From NCBI RefSeq assembly GCF_000243075.1, contig NC_016745.1, forward strand, positions 2,373,001 to 2,437,000: a DNA stretch of 64,000 bases, read 5' to 3'. The stretch comes from Oceanimonas sp. GK1 (GTDB lineage Bacteria; Pseudomonadota; Gammaproteobacteria; Enterobacterales; Aeromonadaceae). This document shows positions 31,003 through 53,458 of this stretch, one piece after another (within the stretch, counting starts at the first letter, position 1; each line of letters opens with the position of its first letter). The translations under genes and the position numbers were made by a program. The notes below the pieces were generated by a model. That model searched no databases. It worked only from the letters and a program-made list of their open reading frames with translations, and had not been told where the DNA came from.

Positions 31003-31983
31003 TCAGCCGCCGATGGACGCCAGATGAGGGGTCATACCACTGTGGCCCTGATGCAGAAAGTGGCTGGCCTTCTTGTCGGCCAGGGCCTCCCGCAACCGTC
31101 GTTGCAGCGCCGCCTGCTGGCCTTCGTGCTGCAGCAAATCGCGCAGATCCACGCCGTAGTCGCCAAACAGGCACAGGTGCAGTTTGCCCAGCGCCGACAC
31201 CCGCAGCCGATTGCAGCTGGCGCAGAAGTCCTGGGCATAAGGCATGATAAGGCCGATTTCCCCGACGTAATCCGCATGCCAGAACACCTCGGCCGGGCCG
31301 TCGTTATGGCCACGTACCTTTTGCTGCCAGCCCGCTTCCAGCAGCTTTTCCTTGATGGCGGCCCCGCGCACATGATGACGCTCAAACAAGGCGTCCATTT
31401 CGCCGGTCTGCATCAGCTCGATAAAGCGCAGCTGAATGGGGTTTGATTTGATCCAGGCCAGAAACTGCCCCAGCTCGCCGTCATTGAGACCACGCATCAG
31501 CACCGTATTGACCTTGACCTGTTCAAAGCCGGCGGCGAAGGCGGCGTCGATCCCCGCCATCACCTCATGAAAGCGGTTCTGGCCGGTGATCTGATGAAAC
31601 ATGCGCGGATCCAGGCTATCGACGCTGACATTGATGGCATCCAGGCCGGCGCTGCGCCAGTCTGACACCTGCTCCGCCATACGGTAGCCATTGGTGGTGG
31701 TGGCCACCTTGCGAATGCCCGGGGTGGCGGCCACGGTTTCGATGATACGGGTGAAGTCCCGGCGCATGGAGGGCTCGCCACCGGTAATACGCACCTTGTT
31801 GGTGCCCATGGCCGCAAAGGCCCGGGTGATATGGCGAATTTCGTCCAGAGCAAGAAAGGACTTGCGCCCGTCCGGCCGGTAACCATCGGGCAGGCAATAC
31901 TGGCAGCGGAAGTTGCAGACGTCGGTGACCGACAACCGCAAATAATGAAACTTGCGCGCAAACGCGTCTTGTAATTCCAACAT
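31003..31983 (-). CDS. moaA: GTP 3',8-cyclase MoaA
   Basis: Radical-SAM enzyme for the first step of molybdenum-cofactor synthesis. The 326-residue protein has the N-terminal cluster motif CNFRCQYC, the C-terminal cluster ([18 protein letters not shown]) and the essential terminal Gly-Gly (LASIGG). The ATG at 31983 is preceded by GGAAAGG; the frame extends 28 codons upstream through the structured leader but without family similarity. Separated from the moaBCDE operon by nap. Confidence 0.96.
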
Positions 31984-31989
31984 AAACAC

Positions 31990-32120
31990 CTTTCCAAAAC
32001 GGGAGGCGACGACATTTCTCTCGGCACCCTTACGAACCGTGGATTCCGGTTCGAGCGGTCCGGCCACCCTATCGGCGCGGTTGTGGCGACTTAGGTGAGT
32101 CGGACTCGGAGTTTTTAACA
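31990..32120 (-). promoter_or_regulatory. structured moaA leader, candidate molybdenum-cofactor riboswitch
   Basis: On the minus strand the 130 bases before moaA are GC-rich and can form GCCAC/GTGGC and a perfect 7-bp hairpin CGAACCG-GAATCCA-CGGTTCG, ending at the AAAGG ribosome site. Moco RNA elements typically occupy this place in gammaproteobacteria. I cannot confirm the family consensus by eye. Confidence 0.5.
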
Positions 32121-32356
32121 GCTTTAATGATTGTCGCTTTCACCTTAGGTGCAAACATTGCTTCAGATCAAGAAATATTTGCGTACACGCCTGCCGGTGG
32201 AGGGACCGACACAGTGACCATAACAGTGAGAGGATTCAGAATGAGTCTTTCATATTGCAACACTGGTGTATTTCAAAATGAAAGTTTTCGCATTAAGCAA
32301 CGGTCATTTTTGGGTCCTTAACACCGCAAATCCTTGCGGAATGGGCGTTTGCAAAG
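32121..32356 (+). other. AT-rich intergenic stretch between moaA and the sRNA by luxU
   Basis: No convincing protein. Seen are an inverted repeat CTTTCAT / ATGAAAG (32247-32253 and 32278-32284) and a perfect dyad CCGCAA-ATCC-TTGCGG (32324-32339) just before the sigma54-like promoter. Base composition is far more AT-rich than the neighbours. It could hold activator sites for the sRNA promoter. Confidence 0.4.
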
Positions 32357-32374
32357 TTGGCACGATAATTTCAT
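32357..32374 (+). promoter_or_regulatory. sigma54-like promoter of sRNA candidate B
   Basis: TTGGCACG-ATAA-TTTCAT: the -24 block is a perfect match to TTGGCACG and spacing is right; the -12 block is TTTCA instead of TTGCA. The same -12 variant is present in the promoter at 34331. Confidence 0.5.
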
Positions 32375-32383
32375 ATAAGTATG

Positions 32384-32456
32384 CAGTCGTTTTTATCCCG
32401 TGCTCTCTTCAGCTCCCGCTGAAGTTCGGCCAACCCATTGGGTTGGCCATTTTTTT
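32384..32456 (+). ncRNA. sRNA candidate B, downstream of luxU (possible Qrr-like RNA)
   Basis: About 73 nt, with no coding sequence. It contains the core GTTTTTATCCCGTG (32389-32402), a hairpin CTTCAGC-TCCC-GCTGAAG (32407-32424) and a strong terminator GGCCAACCC-ATT-GGGTTGGCC plus seven T (32428-32456). The terminator's T-run is only on the plus strand and no plus-strand gene precedes it, so it must serve an RNA. 11 of 14 core bases match sRNA candidate A on the other side of luxOU. Confidence 0.6.
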
Positions 32457-32462
32457 GCCTGC

Positions 32463-32837
32463 TCAGCGAGGCTCCAGCCGTCCTTCCACCCTCAATAAGG
32501 TGTCATTCAGTGCCTGTTGCCAGGCTTGCATCAACGGGACGATTTCCACCTGCTCATGACGACGACAGGCCGCTTCCAGCTTTTCCGCCAGAAACTGGCA
32601 ACGCAGCGCACCGTAACTGCCACAGGCCGACTTCAGGCTGTGACACCACCTGGCCATGCCATCGTCGTCCTGGGCGGCAAAGGCGTCGGCCAGTGACGCT
32701 CCCTGCTGCACGCCGTCTTCCGCAAACAGTCGCAACAGCCGATCCAGGGCCTCACTGCCCAGATCCCGCTCCAGCTGCTCCAGGCGGGACAGATCCAGCA
32801 GGGGCAGACGGCCATGAAGCTGTTGCCAGTCAGCCAT
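32463..32837 (-). CDS. luxU: phosphorelay protein LuxU (histidine phosphotransfer domain)
   Basis: A 124-residue single-domain Hpt protein that in Vibrio carries phosphate from quorum-sensing hybrid kinases to LuxO. The phosphorylated histidine is H66 in WCHSLKSACGSYGA, the typical Hpt motif. Its start overlaps the end of luxO by 8 bases, the same luxO-luxU order as in Vibrio. Confidence 0.85.
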   Translation of the reverse strand: MADWQQLHGRLPLLDLSRLEQLERDLGSEALDRLLRLFAEDGVQQGASLADAFAAQDDDGMARWCHSLKSACGSYGALRCQFLAEKLEAACRRHEQVEIVPLMQAWQQALNDTLLRVEGRLEPR

Positions 32838-34209
32838 GATCGCCTCCCCAGCTTTGCAGCTTGCGGTAAATGGTGGACGGGCTCACCTCGAGCAGCGCTG
32901 CCGCCCGGGAAATATTGCCCTCACAGTGCGCTATGGTGCGCTCGATGGCTTGGCGCTCGATGACCGCCAGCGGCAAGATAGGCTGAGGGCTGGGCACCAG
33001 CTCCCGCTCTGCGGCGGGCACCTCAAACAGGGGCCGGTCCAGGGGCGCGGGCAGCATATCGACCTCAATCCACTCGCCCCGGTGCAGCACCACGGCGTTA
33101 CGGATGACATTCTGCAACTGGCGCACATTGCCCGGCCAATGATAGGCCTGCAGCCGGTCCTTGGTGGCCTCGGACAACCCCACAAAATCCTTGCCCTCTT
33201 CCCGGGATGCCTGACGCACCAGGGCGGTGGCGATGCTGATCACATCCCCACCCCGCTCCCTGAGCGGGGGCAGGTGTACCGGGATCACGTGCAGGCGATA
33301 GTAGAGATCTTCCCGAAACCGACCCTGCTCCACTTCCACCAGCGGATCACGGTTGGTGGCACACACGATGCGTACGTCCACCTTGACGTGATTGGAGCTG
33401 CCCACCGGCTGGATCAGCCCGGTCTGGAGAAAACGCAGCAGCTTGCTTTGCAGCTCCAGATCCATTTCGCAGATCTCGTCCATAAACAGGGTGCCGCCAT
33501 TGGCGCGGATCACCGCACCGTCCCTGTCCTGCAGCGCCCCGGTAAAGGCGCCCTTGATATGGCCAAACAGCTCGCTTTCCATCAGATCCCGGGGAATGGC
33601 GGCGCAGTTCAGGGCGATAAAGGGGCCGTCGGCCCGGCCGCTGAGCTGATGAATGGCTTCGGCACACACTTCCTTGCCGGTGCCGCTTTCGCCGGTGATG
33701 AACACGGTGGCGGTGCTGGGGGCGGCATTCTCAATCAGCCGGTAGACCTTTTGCATCGGCAGGCTTTCACCGATAAAGCCCTGGAAGCGCTCCCGCTCCA
33801 TTTCATGGCGGTACTGGTCGACCAGCTGATTGAGGTGGCGAAATTTCATGGTGTTGTGCAGGGTGACCTTGAGCCGTTCGGCTTCCACCGGCTTGCTGAT
33901 AAAGTCATGAGCCCCCAGGCGCATGGCGTCGACCGCCACGTCCACCGAGCCGTGGGCGGTCATCACTATGGTGGTGACATTCTGCTGCTCCTGGTGCAGC
34001 CATTGCAGAATATCCATGCCCGGCATGTCGGGCAGGATCAGATCCAGCAACAAAATATCGGGCGGCTGGCGCCGAATATGCTCCAGCGCCTCCTGACCAC
34101 TGCTGACCACGGTCAGCGACAGAGGCTCGTCCTGCAAGAACATTCGATACATCGCCGCCAGTGACGGCGTATCTTCCACCATCAGGACATTAAGCCTTTG
34201 CTCTACCAT
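32830..34209 (-). CDS. luxO: sigma54-dependent quorum-sensing response regulator LuxO
   Basis: A 459-residue NtrC-type activator: receiver domain (about 6-120) with phospho-acceptor D56 (LLLDLILPDMPGMD), AAA+ domain with Walker A GESGTGKE (173-180) and the sigma54-contact motif GAFTGA (220-225), and a Fis-type helix-turn-helix at the end (RAAALLEVSPSTIYRKL). Wording follows Vibrio LuxO throughout (for example VGSS, VRIVCATNRDP, GRFREDLYYRLHVIP, PGNVRQLQNVIRN). In Vibrio phosphorylated LuxO switches on Qrr sRNA genes. Two sRNA-like units with sigma54-like promoters flank this operon here. Confidence 0.93.
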   Translation of the reverse strand: MVEQRLNVLMVEDTPSLAAMYRMFLQDEPLSLTVVSSGQEALEHIRRQPPDILLLDLILPDMPGMDILQWLHQEQQNVTTIVMTAHGSVDVAVDAMRLGAHDFISKPVEAERLKVTLHNTMKFRHLNQLVDQYRHEMERERFQGFIGESLPMQKVYRLIENAAPSTATVFITGESGTGKEVCAEAIHQLSGRADGPFIALNCAAIPRDLMESELFGHIKGAFTGALQDRDGAVIRANGGTLFMDEICEMDLELQSKLLRFLQTGLIQPVGSSNHVKVDVRIVCATNRDPLVEVEQGRFREDLYYRLHVIPVHLPPLRERGGDVISIATALVRQASREEGKDFVGLSEATKDRLQAYHWPGNVRQLQNVIRNAVVLHRGEWIEVDMLPAPLDRPLFEVPAAERELVPSPQPILPLAVIERQAIERTIAHCEGNISRAAALLEVSPSTIYRKLQSWGGDHG

Positions 34210-34266
34210 CTCGACTCTCTCGTTGTTTCCATACCAGTTGTTTTTCAGCTTCTTGACAAAAAAGGC

Positions 34267-34280
34267 TTGCCATTGCGCAA
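34267..34280 (+). promoter_or_regulatory. possible LuxO-type upstream activator site
   Basis: TTGC-CATTGC-GCAA is one base longer than the Vibrio LuxO site TTGCA-N3-TGCAA. It lies about 80 bases upstream of the predicted start of sRNA candidate A, a normal distance for a sigma54 enhancer. Confidence 0.35.
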
Positions 34281-34330
34281 CGTCATGTTAACATCATCAC
34301 AACATTAGCCGTGACTCATTTGTATCTTAT

Positions 34331-34348
34331 TTGGTCCGCATTTTTCAT
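34331..34348 (+). promoter_or_regulatory. sigma54-like promoter of sRNA candidate A
   Basis: TTGGTCCG-CATT-TTTCAT keeps the GG at -25/-24 and the correct spacing to the C at -12; the rest of the -24 block deviates in two bases. The -12 block TTTCAT is identical to that at 32369-32374. Confidence 0.45.
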
Positions 34349-34357
34349 GCGTTAGCG

Positions 34358-34436
34358 CGATGTGAAACGAAGCCTGTTTTCTGCCCGTGTGGCTGCTGCG
34401 AAACCAGGGTCGGATTTCCGCCCTGGTCTTTTTTTG
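34358..34436 (+). ncRNA. sRNA candidate A, divergent from luxO (possible Qrr-like RNA)
   Basis: About 79 nt in the 232-bp gap between luxO and the Nif3 gene, pointing away from luxO exactly as qrr1 does in Vibrio. It contains the core GTTTTCTGCCCGTG (34376-34389) in a loop closed by AGCC/GGCT, and ends in ACCAGGG / CCCTGGT with CTTTTTTTG (34403-34436). The T-run exists only on this strand and no coding sequence precedes it. The Vibrio Qrr core sequence is absent, so homology cannot be claimed. Confidence 0.6.
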
Positions 34437-34441
34437 TGTAT

Positions 34442-35200
34442 TCAGGCCGGGTTGTCGATGTCGACAAACTCCACCTTAAGGCCCTGCTCAGCCGCCAGCC
34501 ATTCTCCCAGCGCCTTCACGCCGTAACGCTCGGTCGCATGATGACCCGCCGCATAAAAGTGCAGGCCCAGCTCTCGTGCCGTGTGCACCGTCTGCTCCGA
34601 CACCTCACCACTGATAAAGGCATCCATGCCCTGCTCCGCCGCCAGCTCGATATACCCCTGGCCGCCACCGGTGCACCAGCCCAGGCGCCGGATCTCGCTT
34701 GGCCCGCCTTCGCCCACGTGCAACACGCTACGCCCCAGCCGCTGCTCGATGCGCGCGGCCAACGCGCTGCCGCTCATGGGAGACGCCAGCTCGCCGCGCA
34801 TGGCCACCGACAACGGGTTGTCGGCTTCAAGGGGGCCGGTGACGCGAATGCCGAGCAGGCTCGCCAGCTGGGCGTTGTTCCCAAGTTCAGGGGCGATGTC
34901 CAGGGGCAGGTGGTACGCGTACAGGTTGATGTCGTGGCTGAGTAACGCCTTCAGCCGGCGGCGCTTCATGCCCCGCACCGGCTGGGACTCCCCCTTCCAG
35001 AAATAACCGTGATGCACCAGCAAGGCATCGGCGCCAAGGGCCACCGCCCGGTCAATCAGCGCCTGGCTGGCGGTCACGCCGGTCACGATATGGCGAACCT
35101 CGGCGCGGCCTTCCACTTGCAGTCCGTTCGGGCAATAATCCCGAATGGCGTCCACATTCAGCTGCCGATTGAGCAGCTGCTCGAGCTCCATGTTGTTCAT
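34442..35200 (-). CDS. Nif3-like dinuclear metal centre protein (YbgI family)
   Basis: A 252-residue Nif3/YbgI-family protein, annotated in databases as GTP cyclohydrolase 1 type 2 homologue, of uncertain reaction. Metal-binding histidines are seen in ALLVHHGYFWKGE and in YAAGHHATERYG, and a conserved CTGGGQGYIE block lies between. The ATG at 35200 has GGGAG 5 bases upstream; a start 10 codons earlier has none. Confidence 0.88.
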   Translation of the reverse strand: MNNMELEQLLNRQLNVDAIRDYCPNGLQVEGRAEVRHIVTGVTASQALIDRAVALGADALLVHHGYFWKGESQPVRGMKRRRLKALLSHDINLYAYHLPLDIAPELGNNAQLASLLGIRVTGPLEADNPLSVAMRGELASPMSGSALAARIEQRLGRSVLHVGEGGPSEIRRLGWCTGGGQGYIELAAEQGMDAFISGEVSEQTVHTARELGLHFYAAGHHATERYGVKALGEWLAAEQGLKVEFVDIDNPA

Positions 35201-35253: not shown

Positions 35254-36096
35254 ATGAGCCCTTTACTCAACGAGTTGTTAAACCGGCTGCACCACAACGA
35301 GGTACGTGACCTGGCCTGGGCCATTGGCAGCCCGGGCCTGTTACCCGGCCTGGAGCAGGCACCGGACGATGGCTGGTATGCGGCCTTGCTGCAGGAATAT
35401 CACCCTCGCCTGCTGGAGCTGGACCGCGCGCCCGCCCTGCTGCGTCGTTATTGCGGACATTGCCGCCGCCTGGGCCAGTATTTCGAGACCCTGTGGCACT
35501 TCTTCCTGCTGGATCATCCGCGTTTCCAGGTGCTGGGCTACAACCGCCAGCAGGTGGTGGCCGGACGTACCCTGGGCGCTTTTGATCTGCTGGTGTGGGA
35601 CAGCCGGTACCGGCGCATCGAGCACTGGGAGCTGGCGGTGAAATTTTATCTGATCACCGATATGCGGGCGCCGCAAAACAGTGCCCTGGGCATCAATCCC
35701 TGCGACAGGTTGCGTCGCAAACTGGAGCACATGCAGCAGCACCAGTTGCGCCTCAGCCACCAGCCGCCGGTGCGGCGGGCGCTGATGGCGGAAGGACTGA
35801 TGCCGGCCCATACCCGGCTGGTGCTGAAAGGCCGGCTGTTTTACCCGCAACATGCCGCCCTGCCCGATGGCCATGCCGCCACTGTCGGCAGATGGGGTCA
35901 TGAGGTGCCCGGGCCCGGTTTCGAGCCGCAACAGAAACTGGGATGGATGACGGGAGGCCGAAGTACCAGCGAACGCCGGGATCGACAAAACTACCGGGAT
36001 CGCCATGGAAACTGGTATGTGAGGGTGGACGCCAATTGGAACAAGGAAGTACGAAGTGACAATATGGAGGCGCGTTCCGGAGTCGAACCGGACTAA
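35254..36096 (+). CDS. DUF1853 family protein with an abnormal C-terminus
   Basis: Recognised as DUF1853 from the RLGQYFETLWHFFLLDHPRFQVLGYN and GAFDLLVWD...EHWELAVKFYL regions, a PD-(D/E)XK-nuclease-like core of unknown role. The family-like part ends near residue 225. The last 50 or so residues are encoded by DNA that reads on the other strand as a degenerate intergenic repeat (about 35940-36040) and finally by the antisense strand of tRNA-Cys, in which the stop lies. So the true end was probably lost or shifted. The ATG at 35254 (AGAGA 7 bases upstream) is preferred over the one at 35248. Confidence 0.75.
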   Translation: MSPLLNELLNRLHHNEVRDLAWAIGSPGLLPGLEQAPDDGWYAALLQEYHPRLLELDRAPALLRRYCGHCRRLGQYFETLWHFFLLDHPRFQVLGYNRQQVVAGRTLGAFDLLVWDSRYRRIEHWELAVKFYLITDMRAPQNSALGINPCDRLRRKLEHMQQHQLRLSHQPPVRRALMAEGLMPAHTRLVLKGRLFYPQHAALPDGHAATVGRWGHEVPGPGFEPQQKLGWMTGGRSTSERRDRQNYRDRHGNWYVRVDANWNKEVRSDNMEARSGVEPD

Positions 36097-36138
36097 ACGG
36101 ATTTGCAATCCGCTGCATAACCGCTTTGCTAACGCGCC
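36065..36138 (-). tRNA. tRNA-Cys (GCA)
   Basis: Full cloverleaf read on the minus strand: acceptor GGCGCGT/ACGCGCC with encoded CCA, anticodon GCA in the GATTGCAAATC loop, T-loop GTTCGAC. It follows tRNA-Gly in the same transcript. Confidence 0.96.
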
Positions 36139-36148
36139 TTTGCAGACT

Positions 36149-36224
36149 TGGAGCGGGAAACGAGATTCGAACTCGCGACCCCAACCTTGGCAAGGTTGTG
36201 CTCTACCAGCTGAGCTATTCCCGC
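36149..36224 (-). tRNA. tRNA-Gly (GCC)
   Basis: Cloverleaf on the minus strand with acceptor GCGGGAA/TTCCCGC, anticodon GCC in the CTTGCCAAG loop, T-loop GTTCGAA and encoded CCA. It lies 10 bases upstream of tRNA-Cys. Confidence 0.96.
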
Positions 36225-53367: not shown

Positions 53368-53458
53368 TGGCGGAGGAGGTGGGATTTGAACCCACGGTGG
53401 GCTATTAACCCACGCCGGTTTTCAAGACCGGTGCATTCAACCACTCTGCCACCCCTCC
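53368..53458 (-). tRNA. tRNA-Ser (UGA)
   Basis: 91 bases including encoded CCA, with the long variable arm of a class II tRNA, acceptor GGAGGGG, anticodon TGA in the CTTGAAAAC loop and T-loop GTTCAAA. Confidence 0.96.

Follow-up and report, generated by a model that had tools for sequence, protein, structure and literature searches.

The stretch of DNA analysed here, called the window, covers 64,000 nt of Oceanimonas sp. GK1 (NC_016745.1, GCF_000243075.1), and all positions are window coordinates. It contains a luxO-like gene for a sigma54 activator and a luxU-like gene for a histidine phosphotransfer (HPt) protein. Two intergenic plus-strand units, A and B, flank luxO and luxU, with unit A located between moaA and luxU. 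The promoter, core, structure and gene neighbourhood of unit A are conserved, and LuxO-box-like sites are in excess upstream of it. Unit A is very likely a trans-acting small RNA activated by phosphorylated LuxO and sigma54, Qrr-like in its working and outside the Qrr family.

The best NCBIfam family of the luxO product is the LuxO equivalog, yet the 800-bit cut-off of this model, named for Vibrio, is not reached. The luxU product is also below the cut-off of its model. Judged by these scores, the two proteins are relatives of LuxO and LuxU that score under Vibrio cut-offs. A second LuxO-like gene, 57-58% identical, is found in two close relatives (G002:C64:99036-100241 and G005:C1:2506278-2507504).

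Unit A has a conserved core and structure

An earlier sequence-only reading of the window had placed a sigma54 promoter, a Rho-independent terminator and a short predicted transcript at unit A, and these features are all borne out (Table 1). The start is positioned from the promoter. The predicted fold has two hairpins behind an open 5' end (-27.4 kcal/mol, z -5.1), and the seed UUUAUCCCGUGCUCU is predicted to be largely unpaired. Judged from the window by itself, the promoter is just mildly unusual. TGGCACGNNNNTTKC matches exactly at one site (32358), and allowing one mismatch gives 3 sites, versus 4.2 expected. Unit A stands above chance because of its fold and its conservation.

Among 24 diverse family sequences, 97.6% of the cells of the structure are paired and 15 cells are changed on both sides, a count that 0 of 500 shuffles reached. 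The paired-cell share and the covariation score were also each equalled by 0/500 shuffles. In Succinivibrionaceae-type sequences, the letters of the terminator are replaced and the 5' core is retained. A 5' stretch that stays fixed and open beside a terminator that changes freely would be expected of a base-pairing small RNA.

Table 1 Features of the luxO-luxU region
Feature	Position	Strand	Basis and remarks
LuxO-box-like site TTTCATATTGCAA	32248..32260	.	9/10 to TTGCA-N3-TGCAA; centre ~-130 from predicted A start
Weak LuxO-box-like site TTTCAAAATGAAA	32271..32283	.	8/10
LuxO-box-like site TCGCATTAAGCAA	32288..32300	.	8/10; centre ~-90
Sigma54 promoter of A, TTGGCACG-N4-TTTCAT	32357..32374	+	GG-N10-TC; T replaces usual G at -13
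Unit A, predicted LuxO/sigma54-dependent small RNA, ~73 nt	32384..32456	+	fold, R1 model
Near-invariant 5' core of A, TTTATCCCGTGCTCTCTTCAG	32392..32412	+	unpaired seed and first arm of stem-loop 1
Stem-loop 1 of A (CTTCAGC-TCCC-GCTGAAG)	32407..32424	+	predicted fold
Rho-independent terminator of A	32428..32456	+	terminator scan, fold; T-run ends 32456
luxU-like HPt phosphotransfer gene	32463..32837	-	NF041948 32.8 bits, below cut-off 140
luxO-like sigma54 activator gene	32830..34209	-	GAFTGA loop present; NF041946 662 bits
Sigma70-like promoter of B, TTGCCA-N16-TAACAT	34267..34294	+	TG before -10; overlaps TTAAC repeats
Unit B, predicted small RNA, ~136 nt	34301..34436	+	start from sigma70-like promoter
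Proposed sigma54 element of B, TTGGTCCG-N4-TTTCAT	34331..34348	+	not kept in relatives
Conserved 3' core and terminator of B: TGTGGCTGCTGC, then CCAGGG..CCCTGG, T-run	34377..34436	+	alignment, R2 model

Unit A is a single-copy element of the Aeromonadales

Conservation was studied in the 75 genomes of the window's family. These are the window's genus (23 genomes), Aeromonas-type (37) and Tolumonas-type (11) genomes and the groups g21 (3) and g2 (1). A covariance model of unit A, R1, was built from 22 genus loci. The sequence-only reading had proposed a search of relatives as a check, and the pattern is found in 70 of the 75 family genomes: 22/23 in the window's genus, 36/37 in the Aeromonas-type, 3/3 in g21, 9/11 in the Tolumonas-type and 0/1 in g2. 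Each of the 22 genus genomes has one strong copy, and six weak matches were also obtained at E of at least 0.002. The family genomes without a match are G011, G071, G023, G088 and G089. The first of these, a genus genome of 2.5 Mb (91% complete, 250 contigs), keeps luxO and luxU and lacks both A and B.

R1 matches 45 of 394 order genomes at E up to 0.01, and 34 of these belong to the family. Outside the family, four Succinivibrionaceae-type genomes stand out (E 3.6e-8 to 1.9e-4); seven more weak matches (E 4.6e-4 to 0.0096) were treated as noise. The core pattern TTTATCCCGTGCWCTYTTC was also searched among 84,980 species genomes. It occurs in 59 stretches, 57 of which are in, or fit, the Aeromonadales: 29 in Aeromonas, 6 in Oceanisphaera, 5 in Zobellella, 4 each in Oceanimonas and Tolumonas, 3 in Aeromonadaceae, 4 in Aeromonadales or Succinivibrionaceae, and one each in a "proteobacterium" and a "Gammaproteobacteria" record. 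The other two of the 59 stretches are in metagenome-assembled genomes (MAGs) of other phyla (L146 and L179) and were taken as chance matches because the promoter is missing. No phage-borne copy of A was found in viral_contigs. The lone plasmid match (PLSDB, NZ_AP026896.1) is a circular Aeromonas caviae record of 4.94 Mb that looks like a chromosome.

The control region of unit A carries LuxO-box-like sites

From 104 core matches, one with a short upstream region and 33 duplicates were removed. Two of the remaining 70 loci, L146 and L179, have no GGCA at -24, leaving 68 distinct loci. Since these were chosen for GGCA, only the remainder of the sigma54 element counts as independent. The element, scored out of 11, reaches 10 in 49 loci, 9 in 17 and 8 in 2. 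The -12 block is TTTC in 62/68 loci, and ATGC in one Succinivibrionaceae-type locus (L193).

The LuxO box is given as TTGCA-N3-TGCAA in a passage of PMC3352281 and as TTGCAWWWTGCAA in one of PMC10162802. With the former as consensus (10 scored positions), the best upstream match is 9-10 of 10 in 55 of the 68 loci, 28 of which have a perfect site. Such sites were found in 0/68 control stretches downstream and in 13/62 control stretches located 810-1000 bp upstream of the promoter. The far-upstream count is above the downstream one. In the window, 16 LuxO-box-like sites lie within 2 mismatches, versus 38 expected from shuffles. Three of them, including the only site with 1 mismatch, are inside the 53 bp just upstream of A.

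Unit A resembles Qrr in its predicted wiring but has a different RNA body

The sequence-only reading also held that the core of A differs from that of Vibrio Qrr, so that a Qrr homology search would miss it. This proved correct. Across 32150-34460, the Rfam Qrr family (RF00378) gives no match up to E 10, a limit that is stricter for a single family because E takes in all 4227 of them. No Rfam family is above its gathering score at A or B, and weak matches appear only with a lax threshold. When 247 order genomes were searched with the Rfam Qrr model, 13 were above the cut-off, all of them Vibrionaceae-type, and none of the 20 genomes with any match belongs to the window's family. Conversely, none of these 13 genomes, which the R1 search of the order probably included, is among the R1 matches listed for order genomes.

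Like Vibrio Qrr, unit A has LuxO boxes, predicted by sequence match (55/68 loci; 9/22 in its own genus), and a sigma54 promoter, with TTTC for TTGC; unit B has no conserved promoter of this kind. Short intergenic RNA, Rho-independent terminator and a tie to luxO/luxU are also common to both. The promoter stretch AAAGTTGGCAC is found in five of the six Vibrio qrr loci that we compared. In contrast, Vibrio Qrr RNAs are about 109 nt long with four hairpins (six loci modelled), versus two in the shorter unit A. A has another seed and shows no convincing sequence or covariance match to Qrr, and the pairing core CTAGCCAACTGACGTTGTTAG of the compared Vibrio loci is not present in it. It differs further by its one strong copy per genome, by its prevailing -12 block and by its retention in genomes without LuxR/HapR/LitR.

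Unit A could instead truly descend from Qrr and have diverged very far, and so not be an independent RNA. We consider this unlikely, though not to be neglected, given the shared promoter stretch, the LuxO boxes upstream and the similar terminator arms. Unfiltered, R1 ranks qrr top in 5/6 Vibrio loci, with a tie in the sixth (E 0.0035-0.21). In the other direction, R3, a model made from six Vibrio qrr genes, touches A in 13/16 loci, with A as its top match in 10. However, these R3 matches are weak (E 0.12 to 8, at most 14.3 bits). Unrelated places in the same 16 loci score 18.0 and 14.6 bits, and in 50 loci that lack A the R3 score reaches 17.9 bits. The R3 alignments shown rest on the hairpins and the T-run, and in L017 on two 3' hairpins alone. 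The Rfam search is empty, and A has neither the Vibrio stem-loop 1 nor the CUAGCCAACUGACG pairing core. With unrelated loci as a control for the scores, descent from Qrr is unsupported. A and Qrr are alike in wiring. In other families, a search of the 1.5 kb flanks of luxO with simple patterns (L024-L028) revealed no clear Qrr-like unit.

Putative targets of unit A

Vibrio Qrr regulates the luxR/hapR/litR mRNA, and the sequence-only reading suggested looking for a target at the ribosome site of a LitR/LuxR homologue. In the window's genus, no LuxR/HapR/LitR homologue was found at E 1e-12 in any of the 13 genomes searched (of 23), and a LitR target therefore cannot hold there. Nine TetR-type genes are present in the window's genome, none of which is LuxR/HapR/LitR-like by eye. 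At the same threshold, homologues were found in 9/9 Aeromonas-type, 1/1 g21, 0/3 Tolumonas-type, 0/4 Succinivibrionaceae-type and 2/2 Vibrionaceae-type genomes. In Aeromonas, the duplexes predicted with litR are long, looped and unconvincing; a lone instance of GGGATAAAA upstream of litR comes from L211.

The 12-mer complementary to the seed, AGCACGGGATAA, was searched in 7 genomes with at most one mismatch. It gave 88 matches, 7 of which are A itself, versus 59 for the reversed pattern. Of these 88 places, 87 were sorted by script (L212-L298), and genes were named from the starts of their proteins. Recurrent sites near gene starts precede a thiL-like gene (2 genomes) or lie at a ruvB-like start, in a ribosome-site-like position (3 genomes). 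Single sites are near the starts of fliG-, ftsI- and mraZ-like and other genes. An exact match in G050 (L213) is opposite in sense to both neighbouring genes. Feedback on luxO is only a lead: GCGGGATAA is found upstream of luxO in 5/9 Aeromonas-type genomes and could form 9 pairs with the seed, one of them a wobble. No site of this kind is among those listed for the 22 genus loci.

Gene neighbourhood and probable control of unit A

In genus loci, unit A is beside luxU. More generally, it adjoins luxU or a NosP-like/hybrid-kinase pair, but not in Tolumonas. The gene order in G056 is narQ-like, narP-like, an unnamed open reading frame, A, hybrid kinase, NosP-like, yvcK, luxU, B and gmhA. At this locus (L108), A adjoins the kinase/NosP pair and luxU is about 4.5 kb off. 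In L151, an Aeromonadaceae MAG, A, the hybrid kinase, the NosP-like gene, yvcK, luxU and luxO are clustered. This arrangement resembles the NosP-VpsS-LuxU branch of V. cholerae, in which nitric oxide (NO)-bound NosP inhibits the VpsS kinase, which feeds LuxU, according to extracts of PMC6769237. The NosP scores are low here, however (42.7 and 50.3 bits, cut-off 450), and the NosP-like/kinase pair was not seen at the window's own luxO-luxU locus.

In the window, a molybdenum-cofactor riboswitch (RF01055, 79.5 bits, 31971-32123, minus strand) lies upstream of moaA. Genes resembling napA, napD and napF, named from reading the proteins, are next to it and make this a nitrate-respiration neighbourhood. 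With the narQ- and narP-like genes of G056 (L108 1-1953), nitrate or NO genes are found by A in two genera.

Several observations weigh against the view that LuxO controls a trans-acting RNA at unit A. In the structure test, the 4 pairs changed on both sides (12/500 shuffles as high) and the pair types (173/500 as high) are less striking. The -12 TTTC departs from TTGC. Boxes are weaker in the window's own genus, where 9/22 loci reach 9/10 and none is perfect, and one control reached 13/62. In a Tolumonas-type locus (L103), A adjoins folE and luxU was not seen within 3 kb, and in the Tolumonas-type genome G024, A is far from luxO. The seed-complement search in 7 genomes gave no convincing conserved target, and none was accepted. 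Finally, the window's genome holds at least 40 LuxO-like activator matches (40 of 58 candidates scored), so an activator other than LuxO is possible.

Unit A might accordingly be a sigma54 RNA of respiration or of nitrate/NO sensing, driven by another activator besides or instead of LuxO, with its proximity to luxU secondary. The nap-like genes, moaA and its riboswitch in the window, the narQ-narP-like genes and NosP-like protein in G056, the many activators and the weak own-genus boxes all point that way. There is also a precedent in V. fischeri, where SypG works as a second activator from the LuxO boxes (part of PMC10162802). Set against this are the perfect LuxO-type boxes of 28/68 loci, Tolumonas-type included, and the location of A near luxU, luxO or a likely kinase in the window's genus, the Aeromonas-type genomes and g21. 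We therefore regard this explanation as distinctly improbable and favour a LuxO-activated small RNA.

Unit B is a separate conserved unit

The sequence-only reading took B for a second LuxO-activated RNA that shares with A a sigma54 promoter variant and the core GTTTT-N3-CCCGTG. Its letters are present in the window, as is the terminator hairpin, which is seen by fold though unlisted by a simple terminator scan. An RNA-like unit is indeed conserved at each place (22/23 genus genomes for A and for B), but the proposed promoter and core of B are not. L002 and L003, both close relatives, lack the GG of the sigma54 element. Upstream of B, a sigma54-like score of 8/11 or more is reached in only 3/27 loci, at non-corresponding places, whereas A scores 9-10 in 26/26 of the loci used for this comparison. 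A sigma70-like pattern, drawn up after viewing these loci, matches 20/27 of them. Where the window has GTTTT-N3-CCCGTG, B of relatives reads GCCTGTG, GCCTTGTG or GCCTGTATG. Because B varies there and A hardly does, the match between the two cores is best read as coincidence. Activation by LuxO and sigma54 is very probable for A and not for B.

R2, a model of the 3' core of B, matches 22/23 genus genomes and 59/75 family genomes at E up to 0.1 (37/37 Aeromonas-type). The match is strong in 36 of the 37; in G070 it has only E 0.001 and is on a contig other than that of A. By this model, B is absent from g2 (0/1), the Tolumonas-type (0/11) and g21 (0/3), and matches outside the family are weak throughout (E of at least 2e-4). 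All 21 aligned sequences have GGCTGCTGC unchanged, and at 4 preserved hairpin pairs both sides differ in one or more sequences. The fold of B is only mildly better than that of shuffles, with z -2.2 for its core and z -1.6 for the full unit. A and B are on the same strand and about 5 kb apart in 34/37 Aeromonas-type genomes by position (in one, across the record start). Taken together, B looks like a separate conserved RNA-like unit, divergent from luxO and luxU, whose conserved promoter appears to be of the sigma70 type.

The two units as sibling Qrr-like RNAs of LuxO and sigma54 would account for their position on either side of luxO-luxU, their terminators, their joint conservation in the window's genus and the Aeromonas-type genomes and their joint loss from G011. 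The sigma54 element and shared core of B are unconserved, however, the sigma70-like pattern is frequent, and B is missing by model from all 14 Tolumonas-type and g21 genomes, 12 of which retain A, making this reading highly improbable. That B is a sponge of A, as the adjacency and joint conservation of the two and the precedent of V. cholerae QrrX (extracts of PMC9732341) might suggest, is scarcely credible and was rejected, the predicted pairing of the A seed being no better than with shuffled B (matched by 258/500 shuffles for whole B and 182/500 for its core). Like QrrX, B would add another small RNA to a LuxO circuit; it differs in showing no A-B pairing signal, and QrrX adjoins a LysR-type gene (same extracts).

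The stretch between luxO and B (34267-34325 in the window) is conserved in relatives and contains TTAAC repeats 11 bp apart, with TGACTCATTTGTCAC in many genus loci. These repeats are reminiscent of ArcA sites. Perhaps luxO and B share a binding site here.

A proposed LuxO-dependent RNA circuit

In the circuit that we propose, kinases would pass phosphate via LuxU to LuxO. Phosphorylated LuxO would then switch on the sigma54 promoter of A from the upstream boxes, at about -84 to -136 in the window. Once transcribed, A would pair with target mRNAs through its unpaired 5' seed, with Hfq probably at its 3' U-tail. The NosP-like/hybrid-kinase pair next to A in Aeromonas-type genomes is a likely phosphate source, which would make nitric oxide or respiratory state a possible input. 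By analogy with VpsS, the kinase by A might be inhibited by NO-bound NosP. In its wiring, A would correspond in the Aeromonadales to Vibrio Qrr, from which it differs in RNA body and seed.

For Aeromonas, the consulted parts of PMC5247445 and PMC7512022 describe a link between LuxO and LitR that has genetic support only, and the terms "qrr" and "sRNA" are absent from the main texts of both (term searches). Literature searches limited to open-licence papers turned up, among the hits listed, no Qrr equivalent in Aeromonas or Aeromonadales. Unit A is probably the missing RNA arm of LuxO signalling in Aeromonas and relatives, and offers a concrete single-copy gene for deletion. It suggests that Qrr-type control reaches beyond Vibrionaceae with another RNA. 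It also raises the question of which functions LuxO governs in genera that carry this RNA and lack LuxR/HapR/LitR. Possibly, though this is somewhat doubtful, the LuxU-LuxO-sigma54-small RNA module predates the LuxR/HapR output and can be separated from it, the RNA body having been exchanged under a kept switch. The Aeromonadales promoter would then drive an unrelated RNA with an order-wide seed, even without LitR, and may report NO or respiratory state rather than cell density.

Elsewhere in the window, three tRNA genes are located at 36068-36224 and 53371-53458 on the minus strand.

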